A stretch of DNA of 64,000 nt, from the NCBI RefSeq assembly GCF_008039615.1, contig NZ_VDUZ01000015.1:62001-126000 (forward strand). Reading direction: 5' to 3'. A program made the position numbers and the translations under genes. Every line of letters begins with the position of its first letter. Position 1 is the first letter of the stretch. Below the pieces are notes generated by a model. That model was not told where the DNA came from. It ran no database searches and saw nothing but the letters and a program-made list of their open reading frames with translations. This document shows, piece by piece, positions 2,317 through 22,988 of the stretch. The stretch comes from Vineibacter terrae (lineage in GTDB: Bacteria; Pseudomonadota; Alphaproteobacteria; Reyranellales; Reyranellaceae).

Positions 2317-4002
2317 TCAGCTCGAGAACCGGCGCAGCACCTCGCCCGGACGCGCCGCGGGATCGGCGCAGAGGCCCCGGGCGTCGGCCATCCTGGTGCC
2401 GTTCACCCACACGCCATGCAGGCCGACCGCCGAGGTCGTGAGGCGGGCGGCACCCGAGGGCAGGTCGTGGACGCGCCGCTTGGGGCCGCGCGCGACCGTG
2501 CCGGGGTCGAACAGCATCAGGTCGGCGGCATGGCCCTCGCGCAGCAGGCCGCGGTCCTGGAGCCCGAACAGCCGGGCCGGCTGGCCGGTGAGGCGATGCA
2601 CGGCCTGCGCCAGGTCCAGCACCCCCAGGTCGCGGCTCCAGTGGCCCATCAGGTGCAGGCCGAAGCCGGCGTCGCAGAAGAAGGTGAGATGCGCGCCGGC
2701 GTCGGACAGCGAGATGTGGGTGTCGGGATCGGCCAGGATCCTGCCCACCGCCGTCTCGTCGTTGTGCAGGAGCTGGGCGACGAACAGCGTGTCGAGATCC
2801 TCCGACAGCGCGAGGTCGAGAATGCAGTCGAGCGGATCCTTGCCGGCTTTCGCCGCCAGCGCCGCCAGCGTCATGCCCTCCAGCGCGCGGTTCTCGTCCT
2901 TGGCGGTCTCGACCACGAACAGTCTGTCCCATTCGCTGTTGAAGACCAGCCGCCCGCGCGCCGCCGCGAGCTCGCGGCGGACGGCGTCGCGCCAGGACGG
3001 GTCGCGATAGACGCGCTTCAGCGCCTCGCCATCATGCGCCGCCATGGCTGGCTTCCACGACTGCATGCTCTCGAACAGGTACGGGCTCCTGAAGGTGAAA
3101 TCCATGCTGAGCGGGCAGCATGAGGTCTGCGCCACCAGCGTGCGGCCGCGCGCCCGCGCCGCATTCACCTGCTCGAGCCAGGTGAAGGCGGCCGTCGGGT
3201 TGGTGTTGGAGTGGAAGAGGGCGGCGATCACCACCGGCCGCCGGGCTTCGACCGCCAGCTCCTCGAGATAGGGAATCGAGGTCTTGCTGCCCTTGGTCAG
3301 CATGTAGACGCCGACACCGCTGTCGCCCATCGCCCGCACCAGCGCGCGCAGCTCCTTGTCGTCAGCCAGCCGCGAGGGCATGGGCGTGCCACCTTCGCCG
3401 TTATGCGCCTCGGCCGTCGAGGTGGCGAAGCCGACCGCGCCGGCGGCCATGGCCTCGCGCACCAGCGCCGCCATGCGGGCGATCTCGCGGTCGGTGGCGG
3501 CGCGCTCGGTCGCATCGGCGCCCATGACGAAGGTGCGGATCGCCGAGTGGCCGGCGAAGCAGGCGACGTTGGGGCCGACGCCTTGGCGGGCCAGCATGTC
3601 GAGATATTGCGGGAAGCTCTCGAAGTCCCAGCGGATGCCGGCCCGCAGCGCGTCCAGCGACATGCCCTCGACATGGGTGAGGTGGCGCATGGTCAGGTCG
3701 CGGTCGGCGGGCTTGCAGGGCGCGATGGTGAAGCCGCAATTGCCCAGCACGGCCGTGGTCACGCCCAGCGCCGGCGAGGGATCGATGAAGGGATCCCAGG
3801 TGATCTGCGCGTCGTAGTGCGTATGGCCGTCGATGATGCCGGGCGCCAGTGCAAGGCCGTCGGCGTTCACCGTGTCGCGGGCGGGGCCGAGCTTGCCGCC
3901 GATCGCCGCGATTCTGCCGTCGGTGACGGCGAGATCACCGTGCCGCGGCGCGCCGCCCGTGCCGTCATAGATGACGCAATCCTTGATGACGAGGTCGAAC
4001 AT
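2317..4002 (-). CDS. N-acyl-D-amino-acid deacylase family amidohydrolase
   Basis: 561 residues, amidohydrolase superfamily, closest in layout to D-aminoacylases and related deacylases that cleave N-acyl or N-carbamoyl compounds with a mononuclear or binuclear zinc site. Seen: the metal-binding HxH at residues 60-62 in GIIDGHTHYDAQ, the GNCGFTIAPC loop with the Cys that is a metal ligand in this family, a C-terminal LSDAGAHLTFF Asp motif, and the flanking beta-sandwich segments at both ends. The start at 4002 is chosen because GGAGGAAG lies eight bases before it; an in-frame ATG 26 codons upstream has no ribosome site and adds a non-homologous leader. Substrate unknown. It may be co-transcribed with the small membrane gene upstream. 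Confidence 0.85.
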   Translation of the reverse strand: MFDLVIKDCVIYDGTGGAPRHGDLAVTDGRIAAIGGKLGPARDTVNADGLALAPGIIDGHTHYDAQITWDPFIDPSPALGVTTAVLGNCGFTIAPCKPADRDLTMRHLTHVEGMSLDALRAGIRWDFESFPQYLDMLARQGVGPNVACFAGHSAIRTFVMGADATERAATDREIARMAALVREAMAAGAVGFATSTAEAHNGEGGTPMPSRLADDKELRALVRAMGDSGVGVYMLTKGSKTSIPYLEELAVEARRPVVIAALFHSNTNPTAAFTWLEQVNAARARGRTLVAQTSCCPLSMDFTFRSPYLFESMQSWKPAMAAHDGEALKRVYRDPSWRDAVRRELAAARGRLVFNSEWDRLFVVETAKDENRALEGMTLAALAAKAGKDPLDCILDLALSEDLDTLFVAQLLHNDETAVGRILADPDTHISLSDAGAHLTFFCDAGFGLHLMGHWSRDLGVLDLAQAVHRLTGQPARLFGLQDRGLLREGHAADLMLFDPGTVARGPKRRVHDLPSGAARLTTSAVGLHGVWVNGTRMADARGLCADPAARPGEVLRRFSS

Positions 4003-4129
4003 CGCGCTTCTTCCTCCCGATAGCGATGGACAGTCTGCCTCCACGACCGCGCCGCATCCAGCATCTCGATGGCTGACCACCGGCCAAAAGCCATCGAGGC
4101 GCTGCGGGACGCGCAGCGTTCCTCGCCCG

Positions 4130-4446: not shown

Positions 4447-7107
4447 TCACCGATCTGCGGCGACAGAGATGGGAATGCGCCGGATCTCCGGATTCGTGAC
4501 GTTGCCGTTGACGGCGATGACGGCGAGCATCGTGTAGCGTCCGCCAGACAGGCGCCCGCCGACCTCGATGCGGAAGGTGGCGTCCTCGGCCAGCGGCGCG
4601 ACGCCGGCCAGCACGACACGACCCTGGTCGTCGACCACCGTGTAGCGGCACGACGGCGCGGCACGGCTGCGCACCACGGGCGCGATCGATGGCAGCGGCA
4701 TGCGCACCAGGCGATAACTTCGCTGGAACTTCTCGACGATCTCGATGTCGCCGGACAGCGTGACGCGCCGGCCGTCCCAGTCGGCCCGGGTGACATGGCC
4801 GTGCCGCGGGATTGCGTAGGCGTCGTACGTTCCCACGCCCAAGGGATAGGTCATGTCGCGGAACGCGCCTAGCGTGGCGCTGTCGGCTGACCATCGCGTC
4901 AGTTGATACGGCCCGTTGGTCACCAGGAAGTGGCCGTGGTCGCGGTAGAAGGCGGCGAGCGCCGACCAGCGCTGGCGCGCGGCATCGGCGCTCACCAGCG
5001 ATTGCAGCGCGTCCGGGCGGTATGCCGCGCGCTCGAAAGCCTCGACCAGCGCCAGGAGCTTGCGCTTGAGGGGCTCCAAGCGCACGAGGTCGAGCCAGTC
5101 GACGTCGCGACGCTGCGCTTCTGCCTGCGAGAACGCCGCCCAGCCGCGGCTCACGGCCTCCTCCATCAGCACCACCAGATGCCAGGGCAGGGTGCTCCAG
5201 GGCGGCGCCAGCACGGCGTTGTAGTCCGGATCGTCCGGTGCCGCGGCCGTCAGATAGACATCGACGATCAGCAGCTCGCGCACGAAGCTGATATCGCCGA
5301 CCCGGAAGGTCCTCGCCGTGGTGTCGCTGCCGACGGCACGCACGCCGGCCAGGGCCCGGCGCAGCACCGCCGTTGCGGCATCGATGGCGGGATCGTAGTG
5401 CGCCTCGTCGCCGGGACGGCGGACACCCCAGCGATAGGCGAACATGTAGGCGTAGAGCAGGTCGGCGATGGTCATGCGCGAGCCGTCATGGAAGAGCGAG
5501 CCCAGCACGCGGTAGGTCATTTTCGCTGCGGCGACCTTCTCGGCACCGACCGGTCGCAAGCGCCCGTCACCGGGTTCGGGCAGAACAGCATCGGCCGGCA
5601 CCGGGATCGCACCGGCCACGGCGGCGGGCGGCGCGGAGTCGCGCTGCGTCACGATGGGCTCTGCCGTGATGGACAGACCGATGAAGGTGTAGACGACCAT
5701 GAGCGCCGTCAGCGGAACCTGCGAGCGCATCGCGAGCCGGGTCCCTGGAAGGATCCGCATCGCGCGGGCGTGAGCAAGATAGACCGCCGCAACATGGCCG
5801 ATCACGATCGCGGCGAGGGCCGCGTACCAGGCGAAGCGCGCGCCGACGATCGCGATGTCGACGCGGTATGCGGCGGTGCCGAAGAGGTCCCAGCCGTAGC
5901 CGAACGGGTCGGACAGCAGCGGCACGATGTACTGGCCCTGGATCAGCAGGAACACCAGGTAATGCGCGACGTGGTAGCCGATCGCGATCGGCACGAGCGT
6001 GAGCGCAAAGCCGCGGCCGAACCTCAGGGCGGATTGACCCCCGCCCAGCAGGGCCGCCGCGGCGGCGCAGGCGGCGAGGTACGCACCCACGAACAGGAGC
6101 CAGAAGCCGACAAGGCCCGCCGTCCGGATCGTGACGGGATCGCCGGCAAGCATGGCTTCGGTACCCGACCAGGCGGGTGTGGCAATGAGCCCGTCATAGA
6201 GCACGCTCGACAGCAGCAGCAGGACCAGCGCCATCATCGACGTCGACACGGGCGCATCGTCGTGAAGCCCCGCCCCGAAGGGCCGCAGCATGCATTTCGG
6301 CGGTGCTCCAGCCGTGGCCCTGATCGGCGCGAAACGCGCGAACGTGCCGAAGACGATCGAGAACACCTCGCCGCGCTGCAGCCAGGCTTCGCGGCCGAAC
6401 ACGAACATCCCGGCCAGCGTGAGGATGGTATAGGCGGTGACGATGAGCGCCACATGAGCCGGCACGGCCGGGCTCGGATAGACCAGCTCGATCCATGCGA
6501 AGGCGAGGAGCAGCAGGCAGGCCGGCCAGACGCCCAGCGCCGGCGGGTACGGCAGACGCCGCGCAAGCTCGCCGCCGACGGCGAGCTGATAGAGCCGCTC
6601 GGCGCCCGCGAACAGCGTCCGCCACGGGTTGAGCAGGTCCCAGATGTTGCCGAGCAAGGCCGACGCATGGACCAGCCCGACCCAGAAGATGATCCATACC
6701 AGCGTCGGCGCGATGTTGCGGTAGGGGTTCTGGTCGCCGACGAAGCCGGCGACGATCGTGACGGTGAAGCCGCCGAGGGCGGCCAGCCTGATGGCCAGGG
6801 CGAGAGATCGCACCAGGCCCGACCGTGCGATCGCCGCGCCGGGCCCGGTGGCGAAGAGGTCGATATGCCGCGTGCGGCGCGTGGCGCGGTCGCGACGGGC
6901 GAACAGGCCGAACATCACGAACGACAGCGCCACCGCGGCGGCGGCCCCGAAGAGGTAGAGCGGCAGCGGCAATGGCAGGTCGTAGCGCTGGCCGAAGCCG
7001 TGGGCGCTGGCGGCCGTCGCGGCTGTGAGGGCGAGGCACATCACGGTGCTACCGCGGATAGACCTCGATGCGGACAAGCGGGGCATCCTCATGAGCGTGC
7101 GAGTCAT
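4447..7107 (-). CDS. polytopic membrane protein fused to C-terminal periplasmic module B
   Basis: 886 residues in two parts. Residues about 35-483 hold roughly ten membrane helices starting after an Ala-rich signal-like segment and the sequence AHGFGQRYDLPLPLPLYLFG; proteins like this are sometimes labelled fenitrothion hydrolase or hypothetical, and I do not trust a functional name. Residues about 508-886 are soluble and clearly homologous to the C-terminal half of the protein at 12118-14391 (shared LPEP..GRL, YRVL.S.F.DG, PPWS..PWHL, VTNGPYQL). The FHDG..MTIADLLYAY and GPYQL stretches faintly recall family 5 extracellular solute-binding proteins. Start uncertain: ATGs at 7107, 7092 and 7041 are all in frame and none has a good ribosome site; 7041 would follow the cupredoxin stop without overlap. 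Last gene of the ABC operon. Confidence 0.8.
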   Translation of the reverse strand: MTRTLMRMPRLSASRSIRGSTVMCLALTAATAASAHGFGQRYDLPLPLPLYLFGAAAAVALSFVMFGLFARRDRATRRTRHIDLFATGPGAAIARSGLVRSLALAIRLAALGGFTVTIVAGFVGDQNPYRNIAPTLVWIIFWVGLVHASALLGNIWDLLNPWRTLFAGAERLYQLAVGGELARRLPYPPALGVWPACLLLLAFAWIELVYPSPAVPAHVALIVTAYTILTLAGMFVFGREAWLQRGEVFSIVFGTFARFAPIRATAGAPPKCMLRPFGAGLHDDAPVSTSMMALVLLLLSSVLYDGLIATPAWSGTEAMLAGDPVTIRTAGLVGFWLLFVGAYLAACAAAAALLGGGQSALRFGRGFALTLVPIAIGYHVAHYLVFLLIQGQYIVPLLSDPFGYGWDLFGTAAYRVDIAIVGARFAWYAALAAIVIGHVAAVYLAHARAMRILPGTRLAMRSQVPLTALMVVYTFIGLSITAEPIVTQRDSAPPAAVAGAIPVPADAVLPEPGDGRLRPVGAEKVAAAKMTYRVLGSLFHDGSRMTIADLLYAYMFAYRWGVRRPGDEAHYDPAIDAATAVLRRALAGVRAVGSDTTARTFRVGDISFVRELLIVDVYLTAAAPDDPDYNAVLAPPWSTLPWHLVVLMEEAVSRGWAAFSQAEAQRRDVDWLDLVRLEPLKRKLLALVEAFERAAYRPDALQSLVSADAARQRWSALAAFYRDHGHFLVTNGPYQLTRWSADSATLGAFRDMTYPLGVGTYDAYAIPRHGHVTRADWDGRRVTLSGDIEIVEKFQRSYRLVRMPLPSIAPVVRSRAAPSCRYTVVDDQGRVVLAGVAPLAEDATFRIEVGGRLSGGRYTMLAVIAVNGNVTNPEIRRIPISVAADR

Positions 7108-7432
7108 GGCGATGGATGGGAAAGCGTCCGGTCACGCGGGCGGTGAATGTCATCTCCGCCACCGCGCCGGGCGCGACGGTCTGCTCGATGTCGTAGCCAT
7201 GCAGGTGCACGGTGAGCAGCCGGTCCGCTCTCCAGCGCAGCCTGACGATGTCGCCCTGCCGGACCCGGATCAGCCGCATGTCGGCCGGCACCTGGCCCTG
7301 CGTGACGGTGAGGTCGAAGGTCAGCTCGGCGCTCCAGGCACCGCCGGCCGGAGTGAGGGCGGCGACCATCGGTGCCAGCCGCAGCAGGCCTCGGCGCGCC
7401 AGCCGCGGCAGGGCTTTGCATTCCGGCGTCAT
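7049..7432 (-). CDS. cupredoxin-like exported protein
   Basis: 127 residues with an N-terminal signal (RRGLLRLAPMVAALTP, cleavage likely after AWSA) and a small beta-rich domain resembling cupredoxins. Candidate metal ligands are histidines in HLHGYD and in the C-terminal IHRHDSHAHED; the Cys of a classic type 1 copper site is absent, so a different copper site or a purely structural fold is possible. The ATG at 7432 overlaps the TGA of the upstream module A gene by four bases, which fixes the start and implies translational coupling. The downstream membrane/module B gene follows directly. Function unknown; a periplasmic metal-binding partner of the membrane protein is inference. Confidence 0.72.
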   Translation of the reverse strand: MTPECKALPRLARRGLLRLAPMVAALTPAGGAWSAELTFDLTVTQGQVPADMRLIRVRQGDIVRLRWRADRLLTVHLHGYDIEQTVAPGAVAEMTFTARVTGRFPIHRHDSHAHEDAPLVRIEVYPR

Positions 7433-8520
7433 CGCGCAAGCTCGACATCGGAGATGCGGTTGAGCGCCCAGCCGGCATCGTACGGGGACGGCAGCGCGGC
7501 CGGATCGCCGATCGCCGCCCATATCAGCCGGCCGAACGGATCGGTGAAGCCCGCGATCGGGTTCCACGCGGCCTTCGGCTGCGTGCCGATTCCCAACGCC
7601 AGCCAGCCGTTCCAGGGGAAGTCCTTCAGCTTCACCGTGCGAATGAAGATCGGCGCATTGAAGCCCTGGTGCATGTCGTAGGCGATGTTCTCGATTCCGG
7701 CCGAGAACTCGGTGCTGAAGTATTCACGCTTCACGGTGTAGCCGATGACGACCTTGCGGCAGCCGGCGACGAGGTCGGCCACGAGGTCGCGCTCCAGGTT
7801 GATCCGCTCGACGGCATCGGCCGCCTCGTCGTGCTGCAGCCGCCGCAGCCGGCTCTCGACCTGGTCCCTCGCCTCGCCATCGACGCCGTCCCCGAGGACG
7901 CGATAGGCCTGGTACCATCCGGCCTTCAGCCAGGGTGGTCCCAGCCAGCCGTTGATCGCTGTCATCGCCCCGCCCACGAGGTCCGATACGGCGATCTCCT
8001 CGATCGCGACGTCCCACGGATCCTGCGGTGCGGGCGTGCCCGCGGCCCGCAGCTTCAGGTCCGCGCCCGCGGCCTCGCCCTCGAGCATCCTTTTCGTGGC
8101 GGCCTCGGCACGGTCGGCATGGTGCAGGTAGTCGCCGTGAAACGGCGTGACCGGGTAGGGATGCAGGATCATCGGCCCGTTCACCGCGGTCCGGCGCGCG
8201 GCAGCACGCACGGCGGCGCAGGCGGCGGCGGTGTCGCGCGCATGCGGTGATGCCGGATTGACGCGGGCGGTCACGAACGAGCCCAGCGACTCGACGGCAC
8301 CGACCGTCTCCGGAACGGTGCCGGCAAAGTCCGGCGTCCCCCCGACATAGGCGTGCATCCTGCCGCTACGCAGCAGGTCCGCCGCCCGGTCGGGCGCCAC
8401 CGTCGTGACCTCGATCTCGTGCGGATAGTAGGACGGATAGACCGGCAGCTCGTGGCCGCCCTGTGCGGCGGTGACCAAGGCGGCGGTCACGACGATCGCG
8501 GCTATGGCGCGCCTGATCAT
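7429..8520 (-). CDS. exported module A protein of unknown function
   Basis: 363 residues with a signal peptide (MIRRAIAAIVVTAALVTAAQG). The mature protein is a stand-alone version of the N-terminal half of the 757-residue protein at 12118-14391. Conserved blocks include GHE..YPS.YP.EI, HAY.G..P.F, YP.TP.H.DYL.H, GPPW.K.GW.QAY, LERDLV, the pattern GFN.P...RT.KLKD.PWNGW, and AAWNPIAGFTD. I recognise no named family. The start lies four bases after the livF stop, and the stop overlaps the cupredoxin start, so it sits firmly inside the ABC operon. A periplasmic binding or sensing role next to the transporter is inferred from context only. Confidence 0.78.
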   Translation of the reverse strand: MIRRAIAAIVVTAALVTAAQGGHELPVYPSYYPHEIEVTTVAPDRAADLLRSGRMHAYVGGTPDFAGTVPETVGAVESLGSFVTARVNPASPHARDTAAACAAVRAAARRTAVNGPMILHPYPVTPFHGDYLHHADRAEAATKRMLEGEAAGADLKLRAAGTPAPQDPWDVAIEEIAVSDLVGGAMTAINGWLGPPWLKAGWYQAYRVLGDGVDGEARDQVESRLRRLQHDEAADAVERINLERDLVADLVAGCRKVVIGYTVKREYFSTEFSAGIENIAYDMHQGFNAPIFIRTVKLKDFPWNGWLALGIGTQPKAAWNPIAGFTDPFGRLIWAAIGDPAALPSPYDAGWALNRISDVELAR

Positions 8521-8524
8521 CGCG

Positions 8525-9244
8525 TTAGCCGCGCAGGGCCTTGACGACCTTCTCGTCGGCGAGCGCCGCCTGCGGCGGACCGTGGAAGATGATCTCGCCG
8601 CGGTCGATGGCATAGAGCCTGTCGCCGATGCGCGTCGCCGCGCCCAGATGCGATTCGGCCATGAGGATCGACACGCCCATGGCCTTGATCTTCATCACCG
8701 CCTCGGCGAAGCGGTTCACCACGACCGGCGCCAGGCCCTCGAAGGCTTCATCGAGCAGCAGCAGCGCCGGCGACAGCATGATGGCGCGCGCGATCGCGAC
8801 CATCTTGCGCTGGCCGCCGCTGAGGTGCAGCCCGCGGCGCTGCAGCAGGTTGCGCACCTCGGGGAACAGGCCGAATGCCTGGGCCTCGGCATCCGGACGC
8901 GGGCCGCCGTTGCGGCGCCGGGCGACCGTGTCGCCGAGCCAGCGGCTGATCATCAGGTTCTCCCCGACGGACAGATCCGGGAAGACGCCGCAATCCTCCG
9001 GCGAGTAGCCGATGCCGCGCTTCGCCCGCTCGTGCGGCGGCAGCGTGGTCATGTCCTCGTCGTGAAACAGGATCCGTCCGGACCGCACCGGCAGGAAGCC
9101 CATGATGCTTTCGATCGTGGTGGTCTTGCCGGCGCCGTTGCGGCCGACGAGGCAGACCACCTCCTGGCGGTCGACGTGCAGGGACACGCCGTTGAGGATG
9201 TGGGCGGGGCCACGGTAGGTGTCGATCCCCTCAACCGCGAGCAT
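8525..9244 (-). CDS. livF: branched-chain-type ABC transporter ATP-binding protein LivF
   Basis: 239 residues, one ABC ATPase domain of the LivF type. Walker A is GRNGAGKTT at about residue 35, the signature is LSGGQRKM, and Walker B is LLLLDEAFEGL, the DEAFEGLAP form typical of LivF. It should pair with LivG and drive import through LivH/LivM. It overlaps the end of livG by 14 bases and is followed four bases later by the module A gene. The true substrate of such transporters (amino acids, amides, urea, aromatic acids) cannot be read from the ATPase. Confidence 0.92.
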   Translation of the reverse strand: MLAVEGIDTYRGPAHILNGVSLHVDRQEVVCLVGRNGAGKTTTIESIMGFLPVRSGRILFHDEDMTTLPPHERAKRGIGYSPEDCGVFPDLSVGENLMISRWLGDTVARRRNGGPRPDAEAQAFGLFPEVRNLLQRRGLHLSGGQRKMVAIARAIMLSPALLLLDEAFEGLAPVVVNRFAEAVMKIKAMGVSILMAESHLGAATRIGDRLYAIDRGEIIFHGPPQAALADEKVVKALRG

Positions 9245-10019
9245 GGTCGCTCCTTTGCGTGAAGGCGTCAGGGCCGGCGGCGCCGATCAGCGTCATCGCC
9301 ACTTCCTCGTTGGTCCGGATCTCGTCGGGCGTGCCCTTGGCGAGGATGGCGCCCTGGTGCATCACGACGATGCGGTCGGAGTAGGTGAACACGACATCCA
9401 TGTCATGTTCGACCACCACCGCCGTGATCCCCTCGCCGCGCACGACACCGGCGATCGTGTCCATGATCTGGCCCTTGTCGCGCGTGCTGACCCCGCTCGT
9501 GGGCTCGTCGAGGAACAGCAGCTTGGGCCGCAGCGCATAGGCCAGCGCCACGTCCAGCAGCTTGCGCTCGCCCTGCGCCAGGCTGCGCGCCAGCTCGTTG
9601 CGCTTGCCGGCGAGCCCGAACTGGCCCAGCACCGCGTCGGCCTCGCCGGTCACGGCGCTGTCGCGGCGGGCAAGGGCTGCCATGCTGCGGGTCTTGCCCT
9701 CGCGCGAGAAGATCGCCAGCGCCACGTTGTCGAAGGCCGTGAGATCATCGAACAGGTTCACGAGCTGGAAGCTGCGGGCGATCCCTGCCTTGACGCGCGC
9801 CGTCACCGAGTCGCGCGTGACGTCGCGGCCCTTGAAGAGGATCGTGCCGGAATCGGCGGTGTAGTAGGCGCTGACGACATTGCAGAACGAGGTCTTGCCG
9901 GCGCCGTTGGGGCCCACCAGCGAGACGAGCTCGCCTTCCTTGATCACGAGGCTGACGTCGTCGACGGCATGCGTGTCGCCGAAATACTTCTTGAGGTGGA
10001 TCGTCTCCAGCAGGCTCAT
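9231..10019 (-). CDS. livG: branched-chain-type ABC transporter ATP-binding protein LivG
   Basis: 262 residues. Walker A GPNGAGKTS at about residue 37, signature region SLAQGERKLLDVALA, in which LAQGE replaces the usual LSGGQ as is common in LivG proteins, and Walker B LLFLDEPTSGV. The C-terminal extension after the H-loop (VVVEHDMDVVF) is typical of LivG. The gene begins four bases after the livM stop and overlaps livF, consistent with one transcript. Confidence 0.92.
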   Translation of the reverse strand: MSLLETIHLKKYFGDTHAVDDVSLVIKEGELVSLVGPNGAGKTSFCNVVSAYYTADSGTILFKGRDVTRDSVTARVKAGIARSFQLVNLFDDLTAFDNVALAIFSREGKTRSMAALARRDSAVTGEADAVLGQFGLAGKRNELARSLAQGERKLLDVALAYALRPKLLFLDEPTSGVSTRDKGQIMDTIAGVVRGEGITAVVVEHDMDVVFTYSDRIVVMHQGAILAKGTPDEIRTNEEVAMTLIGAAGPDAFTQRSDHARG

Positions 10020-10023
10020 GGCG

Positions 10024-11040
10024 TCACCGCGTCCACCGGCTGACCAGCCGCATGGCTGTTCCCACGATCCCGGACGGCAGGAGCAGGACCAGGGTCACCA
10101 GCACCACGCCCAGCAGCAGCTGCCAGTACTCCGTGCTCGCGACCGCGGCGGTCTTCAGGTAGTTGAAGGTCACCGCCCCGACGATCGGGCCGGCGAAGGT
10201 GCGGAAGCCGCCGAGCACGCTCATGAACACGATCTCGCCGGAGAACGGCCAGTACAGCACGTCCGGCGTGGTCAGGCCGTTGAGCGGCACCCAGAGGATG
10301 CCGGCAAGCCCGGTGAACGCGCCCGATATGACGAAGGCGATCCAGCGATGGCGCCGCACGGAGATGCCGACGAAGCTGGCGCGCGTCTCGTTGTCACGGA
10401 TCGCCTGCAGCGCCTTGCCGAACGGCGAGTGCACGATGACCCACATGACGACGGTGGCCAGCGTGAACAGGGCCAGCACGTAGTAATAGTAGGCGAAGAC
10501 GAAGCGCTGGAACGACCCCGGCCCGGCGAAGTCGACGAGGCCGCCCAGCAGCGTCAGCTTGGCGTATGCGACGCGGATGCCGTCGGTGCCGCCCGTCACC
10601 CAGAAGAACTTGAAGGCGAGGCTCCACAGCACCTGTGACAGGGCGAGCGTCAGGATGCCGAAGAAGATCCGTGTGTGGCGCACGCACACGAAGCCGAACA
10701 GGGCCGACACGAGCACCGTGCCTGCCAGCCCGCCGAGGATGCAGAGCTCCATCGAATGCGCGCCGAGATCGCGCACGATGAAGGCGACCGTATAGGCGCC
10801 GGTGCCGAAATAGGCGGAATGGCCGAACGACAGCAGGCCCGTGTAGCCCAGCAGCAGGTTGAAGCCGAGCGCCGCGATCGCCATGACCAGGCCATAGGTG
10901 AGGAGCACCGTCTGGTAGGGATCGACCACGGCCGGCAGCAGCGCCAGCCCGACCAGGATCGCGGTCGCCGCGATCAGCAGCCGCAGGAAGGCGGCGCCGC
11001 CCGTGTCGGCCGTGGCTGTCGTGGTCGTCATCGCGGTCAT
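10024..11040 (-). CDS. livM: branched-chain-type ABC transporter permease LivM
   Basis: 338 residues, LivM-type inner-membrane permease with about nine hydrophobic helices. The LLLGYTGLLSFGHSAYFGTGAY block is diagnostic for this subfamily. The start at 11040 (MTAMTTTT) lies two bases after the livH stop; a second in-frame ATG three codons in is equally possible. A longer open frame upstream runs through livH and is not credible. Confidence 0.9.
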   Translation of the reverse strand: MTAMTTTTATADTGGAAFLRLLIAATAILVGLALLPAVVDPYQTVLLTYGLVMAIAALGFNLLLGYTGLLSFGHSAYFGTGAYTVAFIVRDLGAHSMELCILGGLAGTVLVSALFGFVCVRHTRIFFGILTLALSQVLWSLAFKFFWVTGGTDGIRVAYAKLTLLGGLVDFAGPGSFQRFVFAYYYYVLALFTLATVVMWVIVHSPFGKALQAIRDNETRASFVGISVRRHRWIAFVISGAFTGLAGILWVPLNGLTTPDVLYWPFSGEIVFMSVLGGFRTFAGPIVGAVTFNYLKTAAVASTEYWQLLLGVVLVTLVLLLPSGIVGTAMRLVSRWTR

Positions 11041-11042
11041 CG

Positions 11043-11933
11043 TCACGCCCTCCCGAACAGCCCGGTCGGGCGGATCAGCAGGACCGCGGTCGCGATCAGG
11101 TAGAGAACGGCAAGCTCGATCTCGGGGAAGAACTGGATGCCGGCGGTGCGCACCAGGCTCACGATCAGCGCGCCGACCAGCGCGCCTTCGAGGCTGCCGA
11201 GCCCGCCGATCACCACGACGACGAACGCCAGCACGAGGGCCTCGACGCCCATGCCCAGCACGGCGGCCTGCGCCGGCACCACCACGGCACCGCCGAGCCC
11301 GGCCATGAAGCAGCCGATGGCGAAGGCCTGAACGTAGACGCGCCCGACATTGAGGCCCAGCGCCGCCGCCATGCGCCGGTCCTGCGACGTGGCACGCAGG
11401 ATGACCCCGAACCTGGTGCGGTAGATGAACCACCACAGGCCCAGCGCCGCGATCAGCCCGATGGCGACGACGACCAGGTTGTAGGTCGGGTACAGCAGCC
11501 GGCCGATCGGGATGCTGCCCATGCTGTCCATGATCGAGCCCGCCGACAGCGGCGTGCCGCCGAACAGGAGCTTCATGGCGTCCTCGAGGATCATCAGCAG
11601 CCCGAAGGTGATCAGCAGATGGTATTCCTCCGGGCGCCGGTAGAGCGGCCGCAGCAGGGTCGGCTCGATCAGCGCGCCGACGGCCGCGATGACGACGGCG
11701 CCGATGGGCAGCAGCAGGAGAGCACCGGCGAGGCCCAGAGCCCCGCTCATGGCATGGCCGACGGCGCCGCCGACGACCCAGGCCGAGACGTAGGCGCCCA
11801 GCGCATAGAGCGACCCGTGCGCGAGGTTGACGATGCGCATGACGCCGTAGATCAGGCTCAGGCCGGCCGCGATGAGGAACAGCACCGCGGCGTAGAACAG
11901 GGAATTGAGGATCTGGATGATGAAGATCGTCAC
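11043..11933 (-). CDS. livH: branched-chain-type ABC transporter permease LivH
   Basis: 296 residues, LivH-type permease with about eight membrane helices. It carries the family motif IYGVMRIVNLAHGSLYALGAY near the N-terminus and IGGLGSLEGALVGALIV, which forms the EAA-like loop contacting the ATPases. It partners LivM. It is the first transporter gene after a 184-base gap that contains a hairpin repeat, so its translation level may be set independently of the upstream module A/B gene. Confidence 0.92.
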   Translation of the reverse strand: MTIFIIQILNSLFYAAVLFLIAAGLSLIYGVMRIVNLAHGSLYALGAYVSAWVVGGAVGHAMSGALGLAGALLLLPIGAVVIAAVGALIEPTLLRPLYRRPEEYHLLITFGLLMILEDAMKLLFGGTPLSAGSIMDSMGSIPIGRLLYPTYNLVVVAIGLIAALGLWWFIYRTRFGVILRATSQDRRMAAALGLNVGRVYVQAFAIGCFMAGLGGAVVVPAQAAVLGMGVEALVLAFVVVVIGGLGSLEGALVGALIVSLVRTAGIQFFPEIELAVLYLIATAVLLIRPTGLFGRA

Positions 11934-11961
11934 CGTTTCCCCCGTAGAGGCTGAAAAACCA

Positions 11962-12068
11962 CTTCATGGTGAGCACAGGTGAATGCTTCGCATTCACCGG
12001 GTCGAACCATGAAGTGGTCCGCACCGCGATCGTGCGAAGCTTCATGGTTCGACAAGCTCACCATGAAG
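11962..12068. repeat. CTTCATGGTGAGC palindromic repeat, copy 1
   Basis: Outer arms CTTCATGGTGAGC and its exact complement GCTCACCATGAAG at the two ends, with inner copies of GTCGAACCATGAAG and CTTCATGGTTCGAC. It lies between two genes of the same operon (module A/B gene and livH), where the RNA would form a strong hairpin. A shorter relative with the same ends and different centre is at 23149-23231. The remaining bases of this intergenic gap hold nothing recognisable. Confidence 0.75.
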
Positions 12069-12117
12069 CTACTGGGAGACGCTGGAGTCCTACGCGACCT
12101 CCTGTTGCTCCGCCGTG

Positions 12118-14391
12118 TCACTCGCTTCGAAAGTCGAGGCGGCCGATGGCCGGATCGACCGTGTTGCCGTCGAGGAAGACGGCCATGAAGAACCGGTAGT
12201 CGCCGGCCGGCAGCGGTGCCAGCGACACCGCGAAGCGGCCATCCTCGTCGCGACGGGCGCCGCCGGCGGCGACCACGCGGCCGTCGGCGCCGACGACAAT
12301 GTAGCGGGGCACGGGCCGGATCGGCAGCGTCTCGCGCAAGGTGTCGGGCTTGAAGGCGATGCGCACGAGGCGGTGGTCGCGCTGCTGCTTGAGCGCGATC
12401 TCGGCCTCGGCCGTCGCCAGCATGCGCGGGCCGTCGCGCTCGATGCCTGTGACGAACGCCGTGGCCGGATAGGCGAAGAAGTCGAACGTGCCCAGCCCCA
12501 CCGGGTACGAGAACTCGCGGACGACATCGAACGTATAGACGTCGGGCGAGAAACGCCGAAGCTGATAGGGGCCGTTGGTCACGAGCAGATGGTCGTGGGC
12601 ATCGACGAAGCGTGCGAGCGCCTGCCAGCGCGCCGTGGCGGCCGCGGCGTCGACCAGGTCTTCGAGGGCCGGCGGACGATAGCCTGAGGCAGCGAACTCC
12701 GTGATCAGGGCACGCAGCGCGATGCGCTGGGCGGGATCACGCACCAGGTCGAGCCAGGGCAGGTTGCGCCGCCTCGCTTCGCTTTCCGAGAAGGCCGCCA
12801 GCCGGCGCGTGACGGCCGCATCCATCAGCGCCAGCAGGTGCCAGGGGATCGCGCTCCAGGGCGGCGCGACCAGCGCATTGCGATGGTCGTCGGCCACCGC
12901 CATGGCGTCGAGATAGACCTCCACGATCGGCGAGCGATACGTAAAGACCCGGTCGCCGATCGCGATCGCCGTCTCCTCGGCGCCGGTGATGCGCACGCCC
13001 TTGAACTGCTCCCGCATCGGGCGGGTCGCGGCGGCGATCTCGGCATCGGCGGTCGTGGCACCCCATTTGGCTGCAAAGGCATAGGGATACACGAGATCGG
13101 CCGCCTCCATCGCGGTGCCGTCCTGGAACGGTGAAGCCAGCACGCGGTAGACGATTTTGGTCATCGCGCCATGATCGGCACCGGCCGGCACCAGCCGACC
13201 ATTTTGCGGCTCAGGGATCAGCGCGTCGGGAGGAACCCGCAGGGACCGTCCCGCCGCCGGCGCTTCCACCGGCTTGATCCGGGTGCGGTTGGCGACCCAG
13301 AGGCTGTTGTAGGGGATCGGCAGGAAGGCATTGTCGCCGACGATCGACCACACCAGGCGACCGGCCGCATCCGTGAAGCCGGCGATGGGATTCCAGGCCG
13401 CGGCGGCCGGCGTGTCGATGCCCAGCCGCATCCAGCCGTTCCACGGCAGATCCTTCAGCTTCAACGTGCGCATGACGACGGGCGAGTTGAACCCCGACTG
13501 CGAATCGACCGCGATGTTCTCGATGCCGTTGCTGAAGTCGTCGCTGTAGGCCTCGCGCCGCAGCCGATAGCCGATCACGGCGCTGTCGCAGCCGCGCGTG
13601 AGGGCCGTGACCAGGTCACGCTCCAGGCCGATGCGCCGTGTGTCGTCGCGCGTGTCGCCGCCGGTCAGGAGGTCGTGGATCTCGTCCGCGCGCCTGGCGT
13701 CGATGGGGTCGCTGACCACGGGGCGCAGCAGGTGATAGGCCTGGAACCAGCCGTCCTTCGCCCAGGGCGGCCCCGGCCAGGTGTTGAACGAGACGCCGGC
13801 ATCGCGCGTCAGGGTATCGATCGTCACCTCGCGCACGTCGACGTCCCACGAGGCTCCGTCGGATCCGTCATTGCCGGCGAGCAGCCCGTCGCTGTCGGCA
13901 CGCACACGCGTCGTCGGCTCCGGCGCCGCCGGCGGGGCGTCGCGGTGGCGGTCCAGCACCCTGTCGATGTGATCGAGATAGTCGGCGTGGTAGGGGGTGA
14001 TCGGATAGGCATGCGCCACGACGTCGGGGCCTGTCGCCAACCGGGAAGCAGCCTCGACCAAGGCGCGGCAGCGCGCGTCACGGCCGGCGAGGCGCTGCGG
14101 GTTGATGCGCGCGACGATCAGGGAACGCAAGGAGACGGCTGACTTGAGATTCGCCGGGACATCGGCGGCAAAGCGCGGCGCCGTGCCGAGATAGGCATGC
14201 AGCGGGTCCTTCGCATTGCCGAACTCGCGCGCGGCGGCATCCGGATCGAGCGGCTCGATGCGGATCTCCTGCGGATAGAACGAAGGGTAATACGAGATCT
14301 CATGGCCGGCCCGCGCGACGGGCACGGCGGCTGCGCTCAGCATCGCCGCCGCCAACACACCCTGTCGCGTGAGGAGTCCCGGCGTGAACAT
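12118..14391 (-). CDS. exported two-module protein (A+B) of unknown function
   Basis: 757 residues. A signal peptide (about 1-28, ending PVARA) is followed by module A at about residues 29-371 and module B at about 385-757. Module A is homologous to the complete protein at 7429-8520, and module B to the C-terminal half of the membrane protein at 4447-7107, so this one protein matches the sum of two neighbours. Module B has patterns such as F.DG....ADLVYPY and VTNGPYQL that loosely resemble family 5 solute-binding proteins; this is weak. It sits between the ABC binding protein gene (87-base gap) and livH, all on one strand. No enzyme active site is recognised. Confidence 0.8.
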   Translation of the reverse strand: MFTPGLLTRQGVLAAAMLSAAAVPVARAGHEISYYPSFYPQEIRIEPLDPDAAAREFGNAKDPLHAYLGTAPRFAADVPANLKSAVSLRSLIVARINPQRLAGRDARCRALVEAASRLATGPDVVAHAYPITPYHADYLDHIDRVLDRHRDAPPAAPEPTTRVRADSDGLLAGNDGSDGASWDVDVREVTIDTLTRDAGVSFNTWPGPPWAKDGWFQAYHLLRPVVSDPIDARRADEIHDLLTGGDTRDDTRRIGLERDLVTALTRGCDSAVIGYRLRREAYSDDFSNGIENIAVDSQSGFNSPVVMRTLKLKDLPWNGWMRLGIDTPAAAAWNPIAGFTDAAGRLVWSIVGDNAFLPIPYNSLWVANRTRIKPVEAPAAGRSLRVPPDALIPEPQNGRLVPAGADHGAMTKIVYRVLASPFQDGTAMEAADLVYPYAFAAKWGATTADAEIAAATRPMREQFKGVRITGAEETAIAIGDRVFTYRSPIVEVYLDAMAVADDHRNALVAPPWSAIPWHLLALMDAAVTRRLAAFSESEARRRNLPWLDLVRDPAQRIALRALITEFAASGYRPPALEDLVDAAAATARWQALARFVDAHDHLLVTNGPYQLRRFSPDVYTFDVVREFSYPVGLGTFDFFAYPATAFVTGIERDGPRMLATAEAEIALKQQRDHRLVRIAFKPDTLRETLPIRPVPRYIVVGADGRVVAAGGARRDEDGRFAVSLAPLPAGDYRFFMAVFLDGNTVDPAIGRLDFRSE

Positions 14392-14478
14392 CCGCCCCCT
14401 CCGCCGTCATGGCCGCCGCATCGCGCATGACCTCTCCCCGGTGGGAAGAGGCCATGGAACGCTGGCCGCGAGCGCGCC

Positions 14479-15861
14479 TCAGGCCGCCACCTGCGGCCAG
14501 GTTTCCTTGATCCAGTTGTAGGTCGCGGTCGGGTCGTTGTGGCCGTTGCCGGGCTTGGGCCAGTGCGGCGGCGCCGTGATGTTGCGGATCGGGATGGTGA
14601 TCATCCGGGCGGGGTCGAGGGTCTGGAACTGGTATTCCGCCACGTTCTTCGAGAAGCCGGTCACCGCGTCCTTGTAGCCCTGGTGGTTGTCGGGCCGGAT
14701 GTAGAGGTAGCCGGCGGCGGTCTCGAAATACATGCCTTCGAGCTGGCTGATGACCGCTTCCTCGTCGGGCCAGCCGCCGACCAGCCGGTTCGCCTTTTCG
14801 ACCGCCGTCTTGTACATGTGGAGCGTATGGTAGGCGCCGTCCGACTGGAAGTTCGGATACTCGTTCCAGCGCTTGAAGTACTTCTCCACGAAAATCTTGT
14901 TGGCCGGCCAGCGGTTGCCCGGCGGGAAGGTGAAGTAGTAGTTGGAATGGACGCCGGCGATGACGCCTTCGGGATGGTCCTTGCCGATGGCGTGCGGTGC
15001 CACGCCGAAAGCGATCGTGCTTGCGAACTTGGCGTTGTTGAACATGCCGAAGCGCAGGGCCTGCTTGTAGAGCGCCACGTAGTCGCCGCCCCACACCGAG
15101 GACACGATCAGGTCGGGGTTCGACGAGATCGTCTTGGTGATGTGCGCCGTGAAGTCGGTCGTGCCGAGCTTCGGCCAGCCCTCCGAGACGACCTCGGCTC
15201 CCGGCACCATCTTCTTGTAGGCGATCATGAAGTGATCGAAGGCGTTGCGCCCGTAGCTGTAGTCGGGGTGGATGTGCGCGATCTTCTTGGCTGTCGGCCA
15301 GGTCTGGGCCGCCGCCACCGCACAGGTCACGCCGTCGGCCGACTGGATGTTGGTGATGCGGAACGTGTACTTCGGGTTCGGCACCGCCTTGTCCCACAGG
15401 AAATCGGTGCAGCCGTCGACGAAGATCGTGAGCACGCTGAGCTCCTCGGCCACCGGCCCCAGCGCCGGGGTGTTGCCGCTGGAGATGACGCCGGTGAACA
15501 TGTCGATCTTCTCGGAGAGCTTCATGCGGCGAAGCTCCTTCACATTGGCGTCGGTGCCGGCGTTTTCATCGGCCGTGATGGTCTCGATCTTGCGTTTGCC
15601 CAGGATGCCGCCCCGAGCGTTGATCTCCTCGGCCGCCAGCAGATGCCCCTTGAGCGACGGCTCGCCCAGCACCGCGCCGGGGCCGGTGAGGAACGTCATG
15701 TGGCCGAACTTGAGGGGGGTGGAGGGGATGCTGCCCTTGGGCGGCGGGCTGGTCTGCGCCGCGGCCGGCACGATCGGCGGCACCGCCGTGGCCGCGGCGG
15801 CAGCACCCATGGTGACTCCAAGCGTGTTCAGGAAACTTCTGCGGTCAAGCTGCACCGTCAT
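14479..15861 (-). CDS. branched-chain-type ABC transporter substrate-binding protein
   Basis: 460 residues, periplasmic type I binding protein of the LivK/Leu-Ile-Val-binding class, probably the operon's first gene. The N-terminus LDRRSFLNTLGVTMGAA is a Tat-type signal, so export of the folded protein is likely. The mature part has the family layout: LKFGHMTFLTGPGAVLGEP at the first strand, then the GGILGKRKIETITADENAGTD region and alternating lobes. It should deliver substrate to LivHM. The ligand is unknown; the branched-chain class also covers amides, urea and aromatic acids. Confidence 0.9.
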   Translation of the reverse strand: MTVQLDRRSFLNTLGVTMGAAAAATAVPPIVPAAAQTSPPPKGSIPSTPLKFGHMTFLTGPGAVLGEPSLKGHLLAAEEINARGGILGKRKIETITADENAGTDANVKELRRMKLSEKIDMFTGVISSGNTPALGPVAEELSVLTIFVDGCTDFLWDKAVPNPKYTFRITNIQSADGVTCAVAAAQTWPTAKKIAHIHPDYSYGRNAFDHFMIAYKKMVPGAEVVSEGWPKLGTTDFTAHITKTISSNPDLIVSSVWGGDYVALYKQALRFGMFNNAKFASTIAFGVAPHAIGKDHPEGVIAGVHSNYYFTFPPGNRWPANKIFVEKYFKRWNEYPNFQSDGAYHTLHMYKTAVEKANRLVGGWPDEEAVISQLEGMYFETAAGYLYIRPDNHQGYKDAVTGFSKNVAEYQFQTLDPARMITIPIRNITAPPHWPKPGNGHNDPTATYNWIKETWPQVAA

Positions 15862-16300: not shown

Positions 16301-17800
16301 TCACGTGCCGCAGAATGTCTGGTGCACGACCTCGTGCGGCTTGGGCGGGTCGGTGTAGCGCGCGAACCGGGGCTGGTCGTCGTAGGGCGCCGACAGGACC
16401 GCCAGCAGCTCGTCCAGCGGCGCGAAATCCGCCGACTCCTGCGCCGCCGCGATCACCGCCTCGACCCGATGGTTGCGCGGGATGAACGCGGGGTTTGCCG
16501 CCCGCATGGCGATCCGGCGCTCGGCCGCGGCGCCGCCCTCGGCGGCCAGCCGCTGCCGCCACGACACCGCCCAGGCATCGAACGCGGCGGGATCGTCGAA
16601 CAGGTCCCGCGCCGGGGTGTCGGTCTCGATGGCATCGGCCAGCCGCCGGAAGGTCAGCGTGAAGTCGGCGCTGTTCTCGGCCATGCGCTTGAGCAGGTCC
16701 TGGATCAGGGCCGCATCGTCGTCCCGGGCCTGCGCCAGCCCCAGCTTGCGCCGGAAGCCGGCCAGCCAGGCGGCCTCGAAGCGGGCCGGGAAGGCGTCGA
16801 TGGCGGCCTGTGCCGCGGCGATGGCGGCGGCCTCGTCGTCGCCCAGCAGCGGCAGCAGCGTCTCGGCGAAGCGCACCAGGTTCCAATGGGCGATACGCGG
16901 CTGGTTGCCGTAGGCGTAGCGCCCGCCTGAATCGATCGAGCTGTACACGGTGCCGGGATGGTACGTGTCCATGAAGGCGCAGGGGCCATAGTCGATGGTC
17001 TCGCCGGCGATCGACATGTTGTCGGTGTTCATCACGCCATGGATGAAGCCGACCTGCTGCCATCGCGCCACCAGCGCGGCGGTGCGTTCGATCACGGCGT
17101 CGAGCAGGGCGCGATAGGGCTGCGCCGCCGCGGCCGCCTCGGGATAGAGCCGCTCGATCACGTGGTCGGCCAGCAGGCGCACGCCCTCGAGGTCGCCACG
17201 CCGGGCGAAGAACTGGAACGTGCCAATGCGCACATGGCTGCGCGCCACCCGGGTGATGATGGCGCCGGGCAGCAGCGTCTGGCGCAGGATCTGCTCGCCG
17301 GTGGTGACGGCCGCCAGCGCCCGCGTGGTCGGGATGCCCAGCGCCGCCATGGCCTCGCTCACGATGTACTCGCGCAGCACCGGCCCCAGCACGGCCCGCC
17401 CGTCGCCCGACCGCGAGAACGGCGTGCGCCCGGCGCCCTTGAGCTGGATGTCGCGCCGCACGCCGTCGCGGTCGATGACCTCGCCCAGCAGCACCGCGCG
17501 CCCGTCGCCCAGCTGCGGCACCCAGTTGCCGAACTGGTGTCCGGCATAGGCCATCGCCAGCGGCTCGGCCCCGGCCGGCACGCGATTGCCGGCCAGGATC
17601 GCGACGCCCTCCGGTGCCGTGAGCCGTTGCGGGTCGATCCCCAGATGCCGCGCCAGCGCCTCATTCACGCGCACCAGACGCGGTTGCGGCACCGGTGTCG
17701 GGGCCAGCCGCGCGAAGAAGCGGTCGGGCAGCCGCGCATAGCTGTTGTCGAACGCGATCGGCGCTGCGGATTGGGGCATCTCTGCCGGCATGTCGGGCAT
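16301..17800 (-). CDS. selO: protein adenylyltransferase SelO (YdiU/UPF0061)
   Basis: 499 residues, the usual length for SelO, a pseudokinase that transfers AMP to Ser/Thr/Tyr residues of proteins and is linked to redox homeostasis. Seen: [16 protein letters not shown], the [20 protein letters not shown] block, [14 protein letters not shown] (catalytic loop) and [11 protein letters not shown] (metal-binding Asp in place of DFG). The C-terminus ends in the conserved QTFCGT, carrying the Cys found in bacterial members in place of selenocysteine. ATGs at 17800 and four codons later are both possible starts. Confidence 0.95.
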
Positions 17801-18038: not shown

Positions 18039-18359
18039 CTAATACCGCGGCATGTCGGTTTCAACCAACCGCGCCCAGGCGTCGATGCCGCCGGCGAGGT
18101 TGGTGGCGTTGTCGAGGCCGTTGTGCCGCAGATAGGCCGTCACCCGGGCGCTGCGTACCCCGTGATGGCACAGCACGACCAGCGGCGCCTGCCGCGGCAG
18201 CTGGGCCAGCGCCTGCGGGATCTGCTGCATGGGGATGCACAGGCTGTCGGCGATGGCGCAGATCGCCACCTCCTGCGGCTCGCGCACATCCAGCACCGTG
18301 TGCGCGGCACCCTCGCGGCGCATGCGCGCCAGGGTGCCGACATCGATCTCGTCCATCAT
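18039..18359 (-). CDS. rhodanese-like sulfurtransferase domain protein
   Basis: 106 residues, a single rhodanese domain. The active-site loop is CHHGVRS, with Cys in VVLCHHGVR at about residue 72, and the VLDVREPQEV motif typical of single-domain GlpE-like proteins lies at about residues 23-32. It probably transfers sulfane sulfur or acts as a redox/stress protein in the cytoplasm. The ATG at 18359 overlaps the TGA of the RND pump gene by four bases, so the two are translationally coupled, an unusual partner for an efflux pump. Confidence 0.87.
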   Translation of the reverse strand: MMDEIDVGTLARMRREGAAHTVLDVREPQEVAICAIADSLCIPMQQIPQALAQLPRQAPLVVLCHHGVRSARVTAYLRHNGLDNATNLAGGIDAWARLVETDMPRY

Positions 18360-21541: not shown

Positions 21542-21548
21542 GACGTCG

Positions 21549-22778: not shown

Positions 22779-22988
22779 AACACCTCCGACTACCGCACGC
22801 AACAAAACGGCCGTGCCGCCCGGGCGGCGCTCAGGATGTCCCTTTTTCAGGCAGGGAGATCGTTGCCGGAAGCGTGTCGATCCGACCTGAAGGGCCGGGC
22901 CATGAACATAGGTGCGGATGCGCCTGTTGCAAGCAGGGTCCTGCACCGATCGCGAAGCGGCTCAGCTCCTCGCATTCCGGCGCGGCAT

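Follow-up and report, generated by a model that had tools for sequence, protein, structure and literature searches.

A Liv/Urt-type importer operon with probable rearranged oligopeptide-type binding proteins, one of them apparently split between a soluble and a membrane protein

In a 64,000-nt stretch of the Vineibacter terrae genome (contig NZ_VDUZ01000015.1, positions 62,001 to 126,000; hereafter the window), an operon on the minus strand (4447-15861) was found that encodes a Tat-signal (twin-arginine translocation) binding protein, a 757-aa fusion of two modules termed A and B, LivH, LivM, LivG, LivF, A alone, a cupredoxin-like protein and a membrane protein carrying B (membrane-B), in this order. 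The explanation that we favour, and to which we give about an even chance of being right as a whole, is a Liv/Urt-type ATP-binding cassette (ABC) importer operon with rearranged oligopeptide-type receptors, one of which is tethered to the membrane in two pieces.

The original prediction had described the 363-residue protein as A, the 757-residue protein as A plus B and the 886-residue protein as a ten-helix part plus B, and alignment bore this out. A alone shares 156 of 360 positions with fusion residues 23-369 (43% identity, 280 bits, E=4e-92), and residues 503-878 of membrane-B share 167 of 376 with fusion residues 386-752 (44% identity, 272 bits, E=2e-83). Relatives were collected by a two-pattern scan of 84,980 species genomes, in which 214 were confirmed, a lower bound, and the best 80 were analysed (loci labelled L below); 22 of these have membrane-B and 58 matched over the membrane part only. 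Long conserved blocks run through both A and B in the alignments. Family searches gave little for the window proteins themselves: A, the fusion and membrane-B had no match in Pfam at E up to 1, PF00496 (SBP_bac_5) included, and none in PHROGs at E up to 0.01, while NCBIfam at E up to 0.1 returned a single match among the three, to A, with 16.9 bits against a cut-off of 165. A profile search of the PDB was run from an alignment, A3, of 10 fusions, 19 solo A proteins and the B parts of 21 membrane-B proteins (not included in A3 and A5 are the L015 solo A and, as incomplete frames, the B of L027 and that of L030). Its sole relevant match was 7fi3_A (E=7.4e-23, profile 337-616 on chain 22-297), the oligopeptide-binding protein (OppA) of Thermococcus kodakarensis. 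The matching stretch begins near the end of A and continues through B, and a membrane-B profile retrieved the same chain (E=3.5e-17) with positions 501-748, wholly inside B. Weak contact with PF00496 was seen in 11 of the 50 A3 members (best E=1.2e-5) and in 8 of the 68 members of the membrane-family alignment A4, 20 of which contain B (best E=8.8e-5); the Pfam cut-off was not reached, the one relative with known bits scoring 13.5 against 32.4.

The predicted structure of the fusion, built with A3 (pLDDT 80.5, pTM 0.81), likewise retrieved 7fi3 as the top Foldseek match (E=1.6e-12). VIA-align placed its residues 319-634 on 7fi3 34-347 (Z=24.6, root-mean-square deviation (rmsd) 2.6, 290 residues aligned), and in the predicted membrane-B model B matched at Z=21.5. 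In 42 of the 50 VIA-align rows, several of which are entries of one protein, model residues 30-317 were placed on the second half of OppA/DppA/MppA/AccA-type proteins (Z 8.4-10.2, rmsd 3.6-6.9); a range ending at about residue 632 lay on the first half of oligopeptide-type proteins in 5 rows, and the other 3 were unrelated. By title, the 47 binding-protein rows are oligopeptide-type, the class also labelled "cluster C" (SBP_bac_5), and no type I (cluster B) protein occurs among the rows listed. AccA was covered by both halves of the model, residues 32-313 lying on 224-521 (8c6r, Z=9.8) and residues 316-632 on 30-229 (6i7w, Z=8.7), indicating that the two halves cover a binding protein about once, in swapped order. 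The sandwich formed by fusion residues 641-757 had weak fold matches to CopC (5icu), DUF3244 and GH2 immunoglobulin-like (Ig-like) domains. With sequence and fold in agreement, B and the tail of A are probably the first half of an SBP_bac_5-type binding protein plus an Ig-like sandwich, and we hold the fold reading of B to be very likely correct. A would probably comprise the second half together with the opening segment of the first; its reading as a binding-protein half, the second half being assigned by predicted fold, is likely, though held a little less firmly than that of B. In domain terms, the first half would comprise the start of domain I together with domain II, and the second half domain III. 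Since A precedes B in the 757-aa protein, the fusion is probably a natural circular permutant of an oligopeptide-type binding protein, a reading that hinges on the predicted fold of A. Matches to the QhpE protease, the porphobilinogen deaminase (PBGD) C-terminal domain, a helicase-associated domain and, with the A profile, viral capsid proteins involved few members, were short and weak, and were set aside as chance-level.

The presumed second form of the receptor is cut where the first is joined. Solo A terminates a few residues past the A-to-B transition of the fusion, the split point of the A/membrane-B pair coincides with the fusion joint in the alignments, and the joint (residues 357-371) is one of four model stretches with pLDDT below 50. 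These data suggest that the fold persists in two ways, as a swapped-order fusion and as a pair of chains, and that the A/membrane-B pair is probably a natural split version of the same binding protein. The "two shared modules" of the original prediction do recur, but a single fold divided into two at a common site describes them better; its suggestion of a transporter-coupled periplasmic receptor gains from the resemblance of A and B to halves of an oligopeptide-type binding protein. Unrooted maximum-likelihood trees separate the fusion rows, as one group, from the solo and membrane rows (A 100/99, B 100/100), suggesting a single event, either duplication with fusion or splitting. Between solo A and membrane-borne B the distances correlate with r=0.866 (18 rows; 0 of 2000 shuffles as high), between fused A and fused B with r=0.976 (10 rows) and between fused A and membrane-borne B with r=0.483 (9 rows).

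Based on these data, we propose that the operon would encode a Liv/Urt-type ABC importer with three periplasmic receptors, one an ordinary Peripla_BP_6 protein and the other two the same SBP_bac_5-type binding protein in rearranged form. The 757-aa permutant would fold into one two-lobed receptor. A is predicted to be exported and B to hang from the periplasmic end of the ten-helix membrane protein, where A docked onto B would again make up a receptor, anchored by that protein; this assembly we consider rather probable. The tethered receptor would most likely then capture a ligand, perhaps a peptide or a metal complex, for transfer to either the membrane protein or the importer encoded next to it; ligand, copper link and transport are inferred. 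In a more specific version, a Venus-flytrap receptor split between soluble A and membrane-B would close only when its halves meet, so that capture recruits A to a metal-handling membrane module beside the ABC importer, with the fusion as the free-floating version. Such a new receptor-to-membrane hand-over is less likely than not.

Several observations weigh against the proposal. The usual partners of SBP_bac_5-type binding proteins are Dpp/Opp permeases (BPD_transp_1) rather than Liv permeases. No significant match links A to SBP_bac_5 by sequence, so that for the A half the permutation rests on predicted structure, and the A profile retrieves no binding protein from the PDB. Compared by hhalign with 30 of the 62 SBP_bac_5 places in the own genome, among which neither A nor B is found, A gave a non-significant E=0.13, and B gave E=1.6e-4 over a span of 20 columns only. 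The second-half alignment of A has an rmsd of 3.6-6.9. The distances of solo A and the membrane part correlate as well (r=0.768), and because A and B are neighbours, co-inheritance alone could give such correlations, which are no proof of contact.

A is found beside membrane-B in all 19 of the 22 membrane-B loci that have upstream sequence (L013, L019 and L027 begin at a contig end), and Liv genes are present in 17 of these 19, partially in L018, L023 and L028, where the contig starts. Other genomes show the gene order of the operon too, indicating that the arrangement is not due to chance. The fusion occurs in 9 loci besides the window, where the split copy is also kept, and is missing in five loci with a complete SBP-to-LivH stretch (SBP, substrate-binding protein; L016, L017, L020, L029 and L031). 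A second LivM-like permease lies between LivF and A in L029 (7326-8249, BPD_transp_2), L023 (1265-2188) and L028 (455-1330). The operon is rare and patchy: the fusion was found in 3 of 385 genomes of a class sample, the own genome included (G122 and G087 of this sample were treated as L022 and L026 and counted once), and A in 1 of 398 genomes of a phylum sample and 1 of 75 of a family sample, the own genome each time. The fusion had no match in 72,556 plasmid records, and tblastn at E 1e-6 over the DNA of the 58 membrane-only loci found neither A nor B. The link to LivFGHM that had been predicted is thus strong but not absolute, the exceptions being two of the 19 loci, both Rokubacteria (L024 and L025), with A and membrane-B but no Liv genes nearby; widespread homologues lacking a Liv link were not encountered, no A or B homologue lying away from this gene set in the searches made. 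In L024 (122-8920), where no Liv genes were seen, a peptidase M55 (D-aminopeptidase), an SBP_bac_5 protein, two BPD_transp_1 permeases of the DppB/DppC type, A and membrane-B are encoded in one direction; here the A/membrane-B pair accompanies the permease type normally served by SBP_bac_5-type proteins. The nearby frames tested in L025 encode an NDH2-type oxidoreductase, a DoxX-like protein and MreB, with no transporter among them, and in L021 an SBP_bac_5 gene with OppDF- and DppBC-like genes (the latter read by eye) follows membrane-B.

The presence of Liv genes in 17 of 19 loci also suits an alternative in which the two rearranged receptors work for the Liv/Urt-type importer alone, with an organic substrate such as an amide or short peptide, the membrane part being a mere anchor and the metal hints misleading. 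A complete Liv/Urt-type set was identified by Pfam in the operon, namely two BPD_transp_2 permeases, two ABC_tran ATPases and the Peripla_BP_6 receptor, and the subunits are nearest to urea-type models, although below the NCBIfam equivalog cut-offs (bits obtained/required: UrtE 197.6/285.8, UrtD 179.9/304.1, UrtC 145.3/296.2, UrtB 168.3/250.3, UrtA 96/492.75, the last for the Peripla_BP_6 protein). On plasmids of Sulfitobacter, Fuscovulum and Neorhizobium, homologues of the membrane part likewise have SBP-LivHMGF sets, different ones, as neighbours. The two Rokubacteria, however, retain A and membrane-B without Liv genes nearby, and the ten-helix part is conserved, often with the cupredoxin, in loci lacking A and B, suggesting that it is more than an anchor; we regard this alternative as improbable. 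On these plasmids (L092, L100 and L091), Mo-hydroxylase (molybdenum), 6-hydroxynicotinate reductase, nicotinate dehydrogenase and hydantoinase genes are among the neighbours of these sets; a literature search on the nicotinate-type neighbours found nothing. Common Liv ancestry of the plasmid sets with the operon was not supported, their binding proteins being 25-28% identical over about 226-250 residues (43-49 bits) against 33% (169 bits) for the best own-genome paralogue of the operon Peripla_BP_6 protein, whose operon orthologues are 64-92% identical. Judged from these sequence comparisons, the two Liv pairings probably arose separately.

The ten helices of the membrane part, as counted by the original prediction, were recovered both in a hydropathy and positive-charge scan, which gave an N-out/C-out topology, and in the predicted structure. 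B follows helix 10 and would by this topology lie in the periplasm. In A4 (68 rows: the window membrane-B, 19 of the 22 membrane-B proteins, without L017, L027 and L030, and 48 of the 58 membrane-only proteins), His382 and His438 are conserved in 68 of 68 rows, His446 in 67 and His379 in 57; among 12 homologues on plasmids, retrieved with the whole protein as query and compared by eye, His382 and His438 are kept in 12 and His446 in 11. A likely cleavage site lies right before His36, which would make this His the first mature residue. Ala precedes it in 53 of the 55 A4 rows with enough sequence, and by eye His36 is kept in 9 and absent in 3 of the 12 plasmid homologues, its invariance in the 68 rows being partly built in by the search pattern H[GA]FG[QE]RYD. 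An N-terminal His as first residue is a feature of copper "histidine brace" proteins. The 68 A4 members touched seven Pfam families at E up to 0.1, none for the membrane part and none for copper transport, and in fold searches of the whole membrane-B model no clear match for the membrane part was found, the B domain filling the match lists. The label "fenitrothion hydrolase" for this family did not occur in the papers listed by a literature search and was not used. Members of the family lie on contigs whose titles name SAR202/Chloroflexota, Nitrospinota, Rubrobacter and Proteobacteria (L032-L089) and on plasmids of mycobacteria and haloarchaea (L090-L103), in some cases close to copper enzymes.

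Within 1.8 kb upstream, 17 of the 22 membrane-B loci and 38 of the 58 membrane-only loci have a cupredoxin-like gene. In other phyla this gene and the membrane part are also paired where A and B are absent. The cupredoxin link of the membrane part extends wider than its Liv link. The cupredoxin-like label given in the original prediction stands in part: the HLHGYD motif is common to relatives, HxHGxD being present in 46 of 55 aligned stretches, but the window protein matched Cupredoxin_1 (E=0.18) and Cu-oxidase_2 (E=0.019) below the Pfam cut-offs. Matches were obtained in 63 plasmid records, from which 14 regions, 12 of them annotated, were examined. Copper monooxygenase subunit genes lie about 1 kb from the homologue in M. 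dioxanotrophicus and about 5 kb from it in M. chubuense NBB4, PCu(A)C adjoins it in Sulfitobacter, a multicopper oxidase adjoins it in M. gallinarum with a P-type ATPase 2.6 kb off, and a P-type ATPase adjoins it in Haloferax. In Pseudonocardia a galactose-oxidase-like gene is about 3 kb away, and in Haladaptatus an "iron transporter" is near. Based on the conserved histidines and some of these neighbours, the membrane protein and its cupredoxin-like partner may handle copper or another metal or redox centre, a suggestion we put forward tentatively. On the other side, the mature window protein lacks Cys, as do the 14 aligned members listed, and nothing clearly copper-related was found near the homologue on the Variovorax, Rhodococcus ZPP and M. 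rufum plasmids, Haladaptatus being likewise counted here. From the 58 membrane-only loci, 253 candidate frames were obtained, of which 126 were picked by length and 100 scanned, without most near-copies; among 25 of the 96 families matched, none was hit by more than 5 of these 100 frames beside the cupredoxin-membrane pair. The neighbour genes are a circumstantial hint of copper.

The invariant His382 and His438 in helices 8 and 9 (68 of 68 rows and 12 of 12 plasmid homologues) could instead mark the membrane part as a redox protein, such as a b-type cytochrome with bis-His ligation, exchanging electrons with the cupredoxin-like protein, with A and B as a sensor or docking platform. Mo-hydroxylases, COX1, copper monooxygenase subunits and a multicopper oxidase among the single-locus neighbours of the membrane part would fit this. 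Yet no clear fold match was seen for the membrane part in lists filled by B, no other redox motif was noticed and the cupredoxin-like protein lacks the Cys of blue copper proteins; this alternative seems doubtful, to much the same degree as a receptor set serving the importer only. A loss of ligand binding by A and B, which would then serve a structural role in a periplasmic complex, would agree with how little they resemble ordinary SBP_bac_5 proteins in sequence (window proteins without a PF00496 match, relatives with weak ones), but the long conserved blocks in both halves and the retention of split and fused copies in 9 loci besides the window make it very unlikely. The "enzyme complex" also raised by the original prediction was dropped, as searches of Pfam, NCBIfam and PHROGs gave no convincing catalytic family for the membrane part or for either module.

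Our preferred reading, the importer operon with rearranged receptors, combines features of several known systems. SBP_bac_5 proteins (TkOppA 7fi3, DppA, MppA and AccA) resemble the operon receptors in the first half by sequence and fold and in the second by predicted fold; different from them, the halves here are swapped or lie on two polypeptides, an Ig-like sandwich is added, one half sits on a ten-helix membrane protein and the permeases are Liv-type. Like Liv/Urt importers, the operon has LivHMGF with a Peripla_BP_6 protein, but its subunits fall below the equivalog cut-offs, and additional receptors and a membrane protein are present. CopC/CopD and YcnJ/YcnI are copper import systems with an exported beta protein and a polytopic membrane protein. 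The operon shares this pairing, the likely mature N-terminal His and a weak CopC-like sandwich fold; unlike for CopD and YcnJ, none of the seven Pfam families touched by the 68 membrane-family members is a copper-transport family. TpMglB-2 (Tp0684) of Treponema is a natural circularly permuted glucose-binding protein of the Type I/cluster B fold, for which membrane tethering was offered as a possible reason for the permutation (PMC4990184). It is likewise a natural permutant of a periplasmic binding protein, but one unsplit lipoprotein with a cluster B sugar-binding fold (PMC4990184). The operon receptor is probably oligopeptide-type. In the top matches of an open-access literature search, a weak negative, we found no permuted oligopeptide-type binding protein, no naturally split one and no Liv-plus-cupredoxin system of this make-up. 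A sugar-type permutant is thus known, and for an oligopeptide-type receptor in permuted and split form, with one half on a ten-helix protein, these searches listed no description; the fold is well characterised, and no role was found for this form of it. Substrate-binding proteins are among the best-studied periplasmic folds, and a permutant and a split pair with one cut site in one operon open the origin of the rearrangement, and what it costs to split the hinge, to direct testing. Several phyla have the ten-helix family together with its cupredoxin-like partner; this may be a metal or redox module, for which the fused binding-protein half offers a first handle on what the family handles.

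Table 1. Features of the operon and their window coordinates.
Feature	Coordinates	Strand	Evidence or remark
Substrate-binding protein, Peripla_BP_6 type, Tat-like signal (RRSFLN)	14479..15861	-	Pfam Peripla_BP_6 E=2.5e-56
Fusion of A and B (757 aa), probable circular permutant of an oligopeptide-type binding protein, with C-terminal Ig-like sandwich	12118..14391	-	
A module within fusion, residues 1-372	13276..14391	-	Residues 31-313 resemble SBP_bac_5-type second half (VIA-align)
Fusion residues 319-634, matching SBP_bac_5-type first half	12490..13437	-	Begins within A, finishes within B
C-terminal Ig-like beta-sandwich of fusion, residues 641-757	12121..12471	-	Strands in predicted model
LivH-type permease	11043..11933	-	BPD_transp_2 E=2.9e-38; nearest NCBIfam UrtB, below cut-off
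LivM-type permease	10024..11046	-	BPD_transp_2 E=7.7e-39; nearest NCBIfam UrtC, below cut-off
LivG-type ATPase	9231..10019	-	ABC_tran; nearest NCBIfam UrtD, below cut-off
LivF-type ATPase	8525..9244	-	ABC_tran; nearest NCBIfam UrtE, below cut-off
A alone, 363 aa	7429..8520	-	N-terminus signal-like, then GHELPVYPSYYPHEI; fold by homology to fusion model
Cupredoxin-like exported protein, 127 aa	7049..7432	-	HLHGYD motif; weak Pfam matches
Membrane-B protein, 886 aa	4447..7107	-	
Ten-helix membrane part, residues 1-495	5623..7107	-	Conservation, topology; likely mature N-terminal His36; His382, His438, His446 in helices 8, 9
B module of membrane protein, residues 501-886, predicted periplasmic	4450..5607	-	7fi3_A match; C-out topology

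All nine frames are open over the coordinates of Table 1, each with a single terminal stop. The first two intergenic gaps of the operon are 87 and 184 bases, LivH and LivM overlap by 4 bases and LivM and LivG are 4 bases apart. The predicted interleaving with livF, livG, livM, livH and a binding-protein gene agrees with the Pfam assignments, and the tight spacing that had been noted further downstream was confirmed, with a LivG/LivF overlap of 14 bases, a LivF-to-A gap of 4 and an A/cupredoxin overlap of 4 (ATGA); the cupredoxin and membrane-B frames overlap by 59. The own genome has 49 matches to the operon Peripla_BP_6 protein, itself counted, which together with the 62 SBP_bac_5 places amount to a large set of importer receptors. 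Downstream of membrane-B, an Amidohydro_3 amidohydrolase, possibly of the D-aminoacylase type, is encoded at 2317-4080 on the minus strand; its conservation beside other operon loci was not seen. On the other side of the operon, a SelO-like protein (16301-17800) and a two-gene resistance-nodulation-division (RND) efflux pump (18356-22946), both on the minus strand, were read by eye.

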